Source of the DNA: an uncultured Verrucomicrobiales bacterium
GTDB taxonomy: Bacteria > Verrucomicrobiota > Verrucomicrobiia > Verrucomicrobiales > DEV007
NCBI GenBank assembly: GCA_937891465.1
Contig: CALAHF010000184.1
Coordinates: forward strand, 1 to 52,690
Direction of reading: 5' to 3'
DNA: 52,690 nucleotides
The stretch's first letter is position 1, and every line of letters starts with the position of its first letter. The notes beneath the pieces are model-generated. The model did no database searches, had not been told where the DNA came from, and saw only the letters and a program-made list of their open reading frames with translations. The position numbers and the translations under genes were made by a program. Below are positions 22,243 through 26,742 of the stretch, piece after piece.

Positions 22243-22384
22243 GTTGGAACGACTCAATTGCAGGGCGTTGATACTGGAAAAATCTCTGAGGGCACCTGTA
22301 TTTATGGAGGGGCAAACGTGCGATTAGGAGACTCTGGACGACGAATGGCCCTGCATCTGTTGGACAACTGCCATTCTGGCACTT

Positions 22385-22403
22385 GCGCGTCATCCTGACG
22401 CGC
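22385..22403. promoter_or_regulatory. Perfect dyad GCGCGTCA-tcc-TGACGCGC upstream of dnaK
   Basis: An 8-base perfect inverted repeat with a 3-base centre, about 145 bases upstream of the transcription start predicted from the sigma-54 motif. That is within the usual range for an enhancer-binding-protein site. It could instead be a hairpin at the end of the sulfatase transcript, but no T run follows. Confidence 0.4.
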
Positions 22404-22510
22404 CCGAACGCCCATTTTGAGCCAATATGGCCCGAATTGTAAAGAGGCTGGAAATCGCTCTTTCTGCTTAACTTGCTCACCATTAGTGGTTCGAGCGTAA
22501 AAAATAGCAA

Positions 22511-22528
22511 TTGGCACGCCAAATGCAT
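22511..22528 (+). promoter_or_regulatory. Sigma-54-type -24/-12 promoter candidate for dnaK
   Basis: TTGGCACGCCAAATGCAT has GG and GC exactly 10 bases apart (22513-22514 and 22525-22526) and fits the consensus TGGCACG-N4-TTGCA at all but one specified position. The predicted start near 22537 leaves a leader of about 50 bases before the dnaK ATG. Confidence 0.55.
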
Positions 22529-22589: not shown

Positions 22590-24542
22590 ATGAGCAAAAT
22601 TCTTGGAATTGACCTTGGAACAACGAACTCCTGCATGGCGATTATGGAAGCAGGCGAGCCGTCTGTTCTTGAAAACTCGGAGGGTGCCCGCACCACTCCG
22701 TCGGTTGTCGCTTTTTCGAAAGACGGGGAACGACTTGTTGGCCAGGCTGCAAAGCGGCAGGCAATCACAAACCCAAAGAACACTATTTTCTCCGCGAAAC
22801 GTTTGATTGGTCGCAAGTTCGCTGAGCTTTCAGAGGAGGAGAAGAAAACGCCTTACGCTATTGTTGAGGCTTCAAATGGCGACGCCCACATTCAGGTGGA
22901 AGTCGGTGGCGAGAAAAAAACGTTCAGCCCGCAGGAAATTGCGGCGATGGTTCTCGGTAAATTGAAGGCGGACGCGGAAGCAAAGCTCGGTGAGACAATC
23001 ACGGATGCGGTTGTTACGGTTCCAGCTTACTTCAATGACTCTCAACGGAACGCAACAAAGGCAGCGGGTGAAATCGCCGGCCTGAATGTTCAGCGGATCG
23101 TGAACGAGCCAACTGCTGCGGCGTTGGCTTACGGTTTGGATAAAGAATCGGAAGAAAAAATCGCGGTTTATGACCTCGGTGGCGGAACGTTCGATATTTC
23201 GGTTCTCGACATTGATGACGGATTTTTCGAAGTTCTCGCAACGGATGGTGACACGCTTCTCGGCGGTGATGACTGGGACAACGCGATCATCGAATGGATC
23301 GTGAAAGGCTTCAAAACGGACGAAGGCATCGATCTTTCCGGCCAGCCGGACGCGCTTCAGCGGATTAAGGAAGAGGCGGAAAAAGCGAAAATCGCGCTTT
23401 CGTCTTCTCAGAGCTACGAAATCAACCTTCCGTTTGTAACAGCTGACCAAACCGGTCCAAAGCACATTCAGAAAACGCTTTCCCGCTCGCAGCTTGAGCA
23501 GATGACGGATCACCTTTTCGAACGCACCAAGGGTCCTGTTTCAGCCTGTTTGAAAGAAGCAGGCGTCGGCGTCGGTGAAATCGATGAGCTGGTGCTCGTT
23601 GGTGGAATGACTCGTATGCCTAAAGTTTACGAAACGGCGAAAAAACTCGCAGGAAAAGATCCTCACCAGGGTGTAAACCCAGACGAGGTGGTTGCGATCG
23701 GTGCGGCGATTCAGGGTGGTGTCTTGGCGAAAGACCCATCGCTGGGTGACGTTTTGCTTCTGGATGTGACCCCGCTTTCTCTCGCAATCGAGACGATGGG
23801 CGGCATTGCGACTGCAATGATCGAGCGTAATACGACTATCCCGGCGAAGAAGTCGCAGGTTTTCTCGACCGCAGCCGACAGTCAGCCATCGGTTGATATC
23901 GTGGTCTGCCAAGGTGAGCGGAAGCTTGTTTCAGACAACAAAGTGCTCGGTAATTTCCGCCTCGATGGAATCGATCCCGCACCACGTGGTGAGCCTCAGG
24001 TTGAAGTCACTTTTGACATCGACCGAAACGGAATTCTCCACGTTTCTGCCAAGGACAAGAAAAGCGGCAAGGAACAGAAAATCTCGATCGAAGGTTCCAG
24101 CGGACTTTCGGACGACGAAATCGAAAAAGCGAAGCAGGAGGCCGAGCAGTTTGCCGACGCCGACAAATCGCGGATCGAAGAAATCGAAACACGCAACGTG
24201 GCTGAAAATGCTTCTTACACGGTGAAAAAGCAGATGGAAGAGATGGGCGACAATTTGCCCGATGAAGCCAAAACTTCGATCACCGAAGCGACTGATAAAG
24301 TCGATGAAGCGCTGAAAGGCGATGACATCGAAGCGATCAAGTCAGCGACGGATGAACTCCAGCAGACCTTTGCTCAACTCGCGGCCGCTGCTCAAGGCGC
24401 TGCTGGCGGAGGCGGAATGCCAGACGTCGAGCCTGCCGCTGACGGTGATGATTCAGAATCTGATGAGCCCAAAGCAGCAAAAGGCAAGGTCGTCGATGCG
24501 GAGTTCGAAGACGTGGAGTCCGACGATGCCGAGGAATCCTAA
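22590..24542 (+). CDS. dnaK: Chaperone protein DnaK (Hsp70)
   Basis: 650 residues, the usual length. ATP-driven folding chaperone. Seen: phosphate-binding loop [46 protein letters not shown], the adenosine motif [11 protein letters not shown], the linker [19 protein letters not shown] and an acidic C-terminus ending [11 protein letters not shown]. grpE and dnaJ are not adjacent. groES and groEL follow on the same strand after 184 bases containing a strong hairpin. Codon use is strongly biased, as expected for high expression. Confidence 0.98.
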
Positions 24543-24553
24543 ATCCTAAGAAA

Positions 24554-24585
24554 ATCCACGATGAGCGATTTTCCTCATCGTGGAT
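24554..24585. terminator. Strong hairpin after dnaK, possible terminator or processing site
   Basis: ATCCACGATGAG pairs with CTCATCGTGGAT: 12 perfect pairs around an 8-base loop, starting 12 bases after the dnaK stop. It is followed by AAAAC rather than a T run, so intrinsic termination on the plus strand is doubtful. It could instead act as mRNA 3'-end protection. Confidence 0.5.
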
Positions 24586-24726: not shown

Positions 24727-25020
24727 ATGGCTACTACAATTACACCCCTCGGTCAGCGCGTCCTCGTGAAGCGGATCGAAGACGACACACAGCAGTCCGA
24801 AGGCGGGATTTTCCTTCCTGACACTGCTAAAGAAAAACCCCAGGATGCAGAAGTTATCGCACTTGGAAACGGCAAGAACGACGAAGGCGAAGTCATCGAG
24901 TTCACCGTTAAAGTTGGCGACAAAGTGCTTATTTCTAAGTACGGCGGCACCGAAGTTAAAATCGACGGCGACGAGTGTCTCCTTCTCAACGAGAGCGACA
25001 TCCTCGGAATCATCAGCTAA
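24727..25020 (+). CDS. groES: Co-chaperonin GroES (Hsp10)
   Basis: 97 residues. Caps the GroEL barrel. The conserved start [12 protein letters not shown], the mobile loop with [33 protein letters not shown] and the C-terminal [11 protein letters not shown] are all present. It lies 102 bases upstream of groEL on the same strand; that spacer contains a 45-bp palindrome. Confidence 0.98.

Positions 25021-25113: not shown

Positions 25114-26740
<1,627 letters not shown>

Positions 26741-26742
<2 letters not shown>

Follow-up and report, generated by a model that had tools for sequence, protein, structure and literature searches.

A conserved sigma-54-type promoter with enhancer-like dyads at dnaK and a candidate two-component chaperone regulon in Verrucomicrobiota

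Introduction

Sigma-54 enrichment has been predicted for the DnaK, GroEL, GroES, GrpE, DnaJ, and IbpA COGs in Planctomycetota and Bacteroidota, and in the available part of that source Verrucomicrobiota are associated with motility, ABC transport, and rpoN (PMC12316311). Sigma-54 has also been shown at chlamydial hrcA-grpE, where the regulator CtcC is described, in the portions of the reports available, as lacking a DNA-binding domain (PMC7482065, PMC8762339). Among open-licence papers, none was found whose title or abstract deals with control of Verrucomicrobiota dnaK by sigma-54. Promoters of the sigma-54 type stay shut without an activator, so under such control the supply of the essential Hsp70 would hinge on an AAA+ activator, and probably on a kinase signal as well. 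Here, a 52,690-nucleotide stretch of DNA from an uncultured Verrucomicrobiales bacterium (the window; GenBank contig CALAHF010000184.1) was analyzed together with dnaK loci from across the phylum.

Results

Promoter and dyads upstream of dnaK

A sequence-only reading of the window had described TGGCACG-N4-ATGCA with GG-N10-GC spacing before dnaK, a 19-base dyad 108 bases further upstream, and no CIRCE at dnaK or groES; all three observations held (Table 1). The promoter site satisfied the sigma-54 criterion (GG-N10-GC with TGGCAY and NTGC), and its score of 19.9, the maximum, was reached by none of 200 shuffles. TGGCAYN5WTGC had this single match in the whole window (expected, 0.36). The distal dyad is perfect (GCGCGTCA-tcc-TGACGCGC; none in 100 shuffles), and its start position is common to relatives. 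A proximal dyad, overlooked in the sequence-only reading, lies 32 bp (∼3 helical turns) downstream of the distal one. The two dyads are the only matches to GNGNCANNNTGNCNC in the window (expected, 0.80); as 19 of 100 shuffles also reached two matches, the pair is weak by count alone, and its weight rests on position and conservation. The third, weaker dyad was excluded from site counts. CIRCE was absent from the window with up to three mismatches allowed, and no RNA families were found in it. For the sigma-54 arrangement at dnaK it is conservation that decides, the window by itself being insufficient.

Neither a sigma-54 site nor a UAS was seen in the 184-base gap between dnaK and groES, unlike the groES genes of G013 and G020, which have both. 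A hairpin identified by eye directly 3′ of dnaK (CCACGATGAG..CTCATCGTGG, 24554-24585) is likely the end of the dnaK transcript, ahead of groES.

Table 1. Features of the dnaK-groESL locus and of the candidate regulatory genes
Feature	Position	Strand	Basis or remark
Sigma-54 promoter TGGCACGCCAAATGCA (-24/-12, exact GG-N10-GC)	22512..22527	+	Pattern match, top score 19.9, kept in relatives; predicted start ~22537
Distal enhancer dyad (UAS) GCGCGTCATCCTGACGCGC	22385..22403	+	19-base dyad; 17-base consensus form from -126 relative to -24 box
Proximal enhancer dyad (UAS) TGAGCCAATATGGCCCG	22418..22434	+	9/10 consensus bases, start -94
Third, weaker enhancer-like dyad CTGCCATTCTGGCAC	22368..22382	+	7/8 core bases; -144 from -24 box
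dnaK (Hsp70, 650 aa), gene driven	22590..24542	+	TIGR02350 above cut-off
groES	24727..25020	+	Followed by groEL, 25123-26742
Candidate activator, L100-type NtrC-family bEBP (REC-AAA-Fis)	L281:4677-6056		PF00072, PF00158, PF02954
Soluble PAS-HisKA histidine kinase	L281:3459-4664		Encoded just before candidate bEBP

Conservation across Verrucomicrobiota

The loci read comprised 80 dnaK loci from named Verrucomicrobiota genomes plus the loci of 30 same-order genomes, and a further 75 places in 74 of 80 additional phylum-wide genomes; the other 6 had no dnaK match at an E value of ≤1e−170. Ten of 90 additional phylum genomes had been omitted from the dnaK search. They were chosen before their dnaK results were known, and for each a same-genus genome was kept or already read (five g14, three g45, one g26, and one g27). 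After 81 upstreams had been scored individually, the window, the 80 loci, and the 75 phylum-wide places were pooled for statistics (156 upstreams); 7 near-duplicates or sequences shorter than 200 bp were removed, leaving 149. The first 80 loci had already been viewed when the UAS consensus and scoring weights were chosen by eye. Thresholds were a sigma-54 score of ≥18.4 (maximum, 19.9) and a UAS match of ≥9/10 to TGNGNCANNNTGNCNCA, with 17.5 or UAS 8 as loose cut-offs.

A sigma-54 score of at least 18.4 was found in 129 of the 149 nonredundant dnaK upstreams, compared with 1.1% of shuffles. The UAS was present at ≥9/10 in 116 (0.4% of shuffles) and at ≥8 in 143 (6.2% of shuffles). The 73 retained phylum-wide upstreams were obtained after this choice and so test it more fairly; 61 of these carried the sigma-54 site, 62 the UAS, and 51 both. 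As a control, the upstreams of the remaining ORFs at these loci were scored: 8 of 403 reached 18.4, and the three of these with both elements all traced back to dnaK, either through an alternative start or through an ORF within the gene. All nominal P values are inflated by the relatedness of the genomes.

Seventeen of the 149 dnaK upstreams fell below the loose cut-offs. Neither element was shown well by the dnaK of G119 or by the second dnaK of G111 (G111:C1:2902908-2904818; upstream L393), a genome whose first copy has both. CIRCE at ≥14 of 18 positions was found in 0 of 149 upstreams, and a CIRCE element at dnaK was rejected. In 39 of the 149 upstreams (L048, L052, L069, G124, and G121 among them) the −24 box lay 26 to 32 bases before the dnaK start codon, and 33 of these 39 scored ≥17.5. 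With this spacing the transcription start would fall on or next to the ATG, giving a leaderless dnaK mRNA.

Candidate activator

An intact rpoN (TIGR02395; 432.5 bits, above cut-off) is present in the genome from which the window derives (the source genome), together with four bEBP-like proteins scoring >100 bits (L098, L099, L100, and L101), three of them with a GAFTGA loop. The fourth, the REC-AAA-Fis protein L101 (L101:1036-2406, C223), lacks the loop and is therefore probably no sigma-54 activator. L098 (L098:1000-2439, C97) has Glu at the receiver Asp place and is divergent from a PII-like gene with a sigma-54 site. L099 is an orphan, and L100 follows a histidine kinase gene. The candidate activator listed in Table 1 has the GAFTGA loop, the receiver Asp, and a kinase partner. 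A relative of L100 was found in each of 11 other genomes with fetched bEBPs (490 to 714 bits; paralogues, ≤296), and a protein match at an E value of ≤1e−60 in 96 of 96 phylum-wide genomes. In a tree of 80 sequences, the L100 type formed one clade of 45 (support, 98/99) that excluded L098 and L099.

Seven genomes (G070, G091, G074, G125, G106, G065, and G092), two of which are 0.9 Mb, carried a single PF00158 protein of >100 bits, in each case a member of the L100-type clade, and all seven had dnaK upstreams scoring ≥18.4 with a UAS of ≥9. The best UAS was at −58 to −60, not −103, in G125, G106, G065, and G092. The single bEBPs of G065 and G092 (L403 and L404) have GAFTNA in place of GAFTGA. 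Within the ∼3.5-kb stretches available for the seven, a kinase next to the bEBP was seen in G074 only. Since the L100-type family is present in all 96 genomes searched, and these seven genomes keep the arrangement with no other canonical bEBP, the dnaK activator is likely the REC-AAA-Fis response regulator adjoining the soluble histidine kinase, an assignment predicted from sequence with indirect support and no binding data.

The sigma-54 promoter could nevertheless be real and served by another bEBP of the L098 or L099 type, or several could share the dyads. The three GAFTGA bEBPs in the source genome, with the dyads tied to one of them by indirect evidence only, speak for this, but it is unlikely: in the 11 other genomes, relatives of L099 were found in 5 and of L098 in none, L098 adjoins glnK, whose promoter has no UAS, and the genomes with the L100-type bEBP alone keep the dnaK arrangement. 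Some genomes outside those 11 do contain L098-type proteins, as seen in the tree.

Chaperone regulon

A scan of 39 genomes for the −24 box (as GTGCCA) together with the UAS gave 86 matches, compared with 43 for the reversed control. Seventy were inspected; the remaining 16 comprised 6 at known dnaK positions and 10 that were not viewed. A −12 GC was present in 22 of the 70, and a chaperone gene lay downstream of 21 of these (11 dnaK, 8 Hsp20-like, and 2 groES; 1 had no gene). Pfam confirmed seven of the eight Hsp20 and both groES; the exception, L202, is cut by a contig end and had no Pfam match. The Hsp20 pair of the source genome (L272) has two UAS, at −137 and −93, plus the promoter TGGTATCTTTTGTGC, which the GTGCCA of the scan missed. 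Neither a sigma-54 site nor a UAS was found at its other Hsp20 gene (L275). Hsp20 was present in 7 of 12 genomes searched, with none in four genomes of genus g14.

A stricter −24/−12 pattern matched 18 times in the source genome (reversed control, 11). Matches shortly before start codons preceded dnaK, a gene for a 116-amino-acid hypothetical protein, and genes reading by eye as amtB, PII, and glnA, and among these sites only dnaK had a UAS. No autoregulation of rpoN or bEBP genes through a dnaK-type UAS was found in the short loci available. The apparent amtB, PII, and glnA sites, and the NtrC/AtoC-like score of the candidate bEBP, could point to an NtrC-type regulon for nitrogen or carbon control that includes chaperones incidentally, rather than control by protein stress. 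We consider this improbable, as no UAS of the dnaK type (strict pattern) occurs within 400 bp upstream of amtB, PII/glnK, or glnA, and the scan matches with a −12 box included chaperones and no nitrogen genes.

Geometry of the UAS and linker

Measured from the −24 T, UAS starts were most frequent at −104/−103, and lesser peaks lay near −93, −115, −126, −136, and −147. When sites from −108 to −99 were left out, the remaining 141 kept a period of ∼10.6 to 10.8 bp (resultant, 0.46) in phase with the main peak (Rayleigh P = 5e−13, a nominal value that ignores relatedness). A requirement for activators to meet the promoter on a single helical face predicts phasing of this kind. The linker between the UAS and the −24 box was AT-richer (GC, 40% versus 53%). 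IHF-like sites in the linker (≥8 of 9 consensus bases) were seen in 45% of the 149 dnaK upstreams and 18% of shuffles, which fits a DNA bend but is suggestive only.

Repressors such as HrcA or HspR usually act at chaperone genes through palindromic operators, and the dyads could be operators of this kind, with sigma-54 or another sigma factor driving dnaK without them as enhancers. This is very unlikely given that the dyads lie mostly 90 to 150 bp upstream of the −24 box and in helical phase with it, and that dyad and sigma-54 site together select chaperone genes. Nor was a sigma-70-type promoter (≥9 of 12) commoner in these upstreams than in their shuffles (15% for each), and a detectable one was rejected within the limits of a scoring that used E. 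coli-type hexamers only. Sigma-54 may thus be the sole promoter type at dnaK, a sequence-based inference no wider than those hexamers. A chance match of a short motif, to which the weakness of a single window by itself lends some color, has a negligible probability and was ruled out by conservation well in excess of that in shuffles and at other ORF upstreams.

Discussion

Sigma-54 control of dnaK, as proposed from the window alone, is supported: rpoN and bEBPs, one family of which fits as activator, are present in the source genome, and the −24/−12 motif and dyads recur in relatives and throughout the phylum as sampled, although transcript and mutant data are lacking. The preferred reading, a sigma-54 dnaK promoter with paired dyads, the L281 bEBP and kinase, and a phylum-wide chaperone regulon that includes Hsp20 and, in relatives, groESL, is held with good confidence on sequence evidence, without transcripts, binding assays, or mutants behind it. 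The soluble PAS histidine kinase would phosphorylate the response-regulator bEBP, which would then bind the paired 17-base dyads and contact the closed complex as the AT-richer linker loops. ATP hydrolysis by the bEBP would open the sigma-54 RNA polymerase complex, and dnaK would be transcribed from the promoter at 22512-22527. The same circuit is predicted to drive the Hsp20 pair of the source genome and, in relatives, groESL; its occurrence at dnaK, Hsp20, and groESL implies a chaperone regulon kept across the phylum. What the sequence itself shows is the promoter, the dyads and their helical phasing, which genes belong to the regulon, and that rpoN and the activator family are present. DNA binding by the L281 bEBP, its phosphorylation, and the inducing signal are inferred, protein-folding stress being the obvious guess for the last.

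The phylum of Chlamydia is usually grouped with Verrucomicrobiota. A broader proposal, for which we claim somewhat less than an even chance and have no rpoH or hrcA data, is that the sigma-54 two-component chaperone regulon is ancestral and the main proteostasis control of Verrucomicrobiota, taking the place that sigma-32 or HrcA/CIRCE would have at dnaK; the activator alone might then gate the essential Hsp70, and the chlamydial link of CtcB/CtcC and sigma-54 to hrcA-grpE-dnaK may survive from this circuit. The arrangement suggests a little-known mode of bacterial chaperone control. With promoter, enhancer, candidate activator, kinase, and coregulated genes named, folding-stress sensing becomes directly testable in a phylum that includes Akkermansia, and there is a concrete hypothesis for the role of CtcB/CtcC before Chlamydia turned sigma-54 to developmental genes.

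Comparison with known systems

A sigma-54-activated Hsp70 had been called unusual, which stands in relation to E. coli or Bacillus but not as a claim of novelty, since precedents are indicated in the accessible parts of three reports (PMC12316311, PMC7482065, PMC8762339). The arrangement predicted in Planctomycetota and Bacteroidota is alike in having −24/−12 sites at chaperone genes; unlike for Verrucomicrobiota dnaK here, no enhancer or activator is named in the available part of that source (PMC12316311). The CtcB/CtcC (AtoS/AtoC) system of Chlamydia trachomatis similarly joins sigma-54 and an AtoC/NtrC-like two-component activator at a heat shock operon, hrcA-grpE(-dnaK). As far as the accessible portions of the chlamydial reports go, it differs as follows: CtcC lacks the DNA-binding domain, whereas the Verrucomicrobiota candidate keeps a Fis-type HTH; a tandem sigma-66 promoter and CIRCE accompany the chlamydial operon, whereas Verrucomicrobiota dnaK has paired dyads and no CIRCE; and most chlamydial sigma-54 targets are late-developmental genes (PMC7482065, PMC8762339). 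HrcA/CIRCE and RpoH control act on the same target genes as the Verrucomicrobiota circuit but through a repressor with CIRCE, which was not found at Verrucomicrobiota dnaK, or through a sigma-70-family factor. The NtrBC and ZraSR circuits share the kinase and REC-AAA-Fis regulator, the paired upstream dyads, and the sigma-54 promoter, whereas the Verrucomicrobiota circuit targets chaperones and its family is conserved across a phylum. Its dyad sequence also differs from the NtrC site. Sigma-54 at chaperone genes has already been predicted or shown elsewhere, whereas the enhancer, the activator, and the phylum-wide spread appear to be new.
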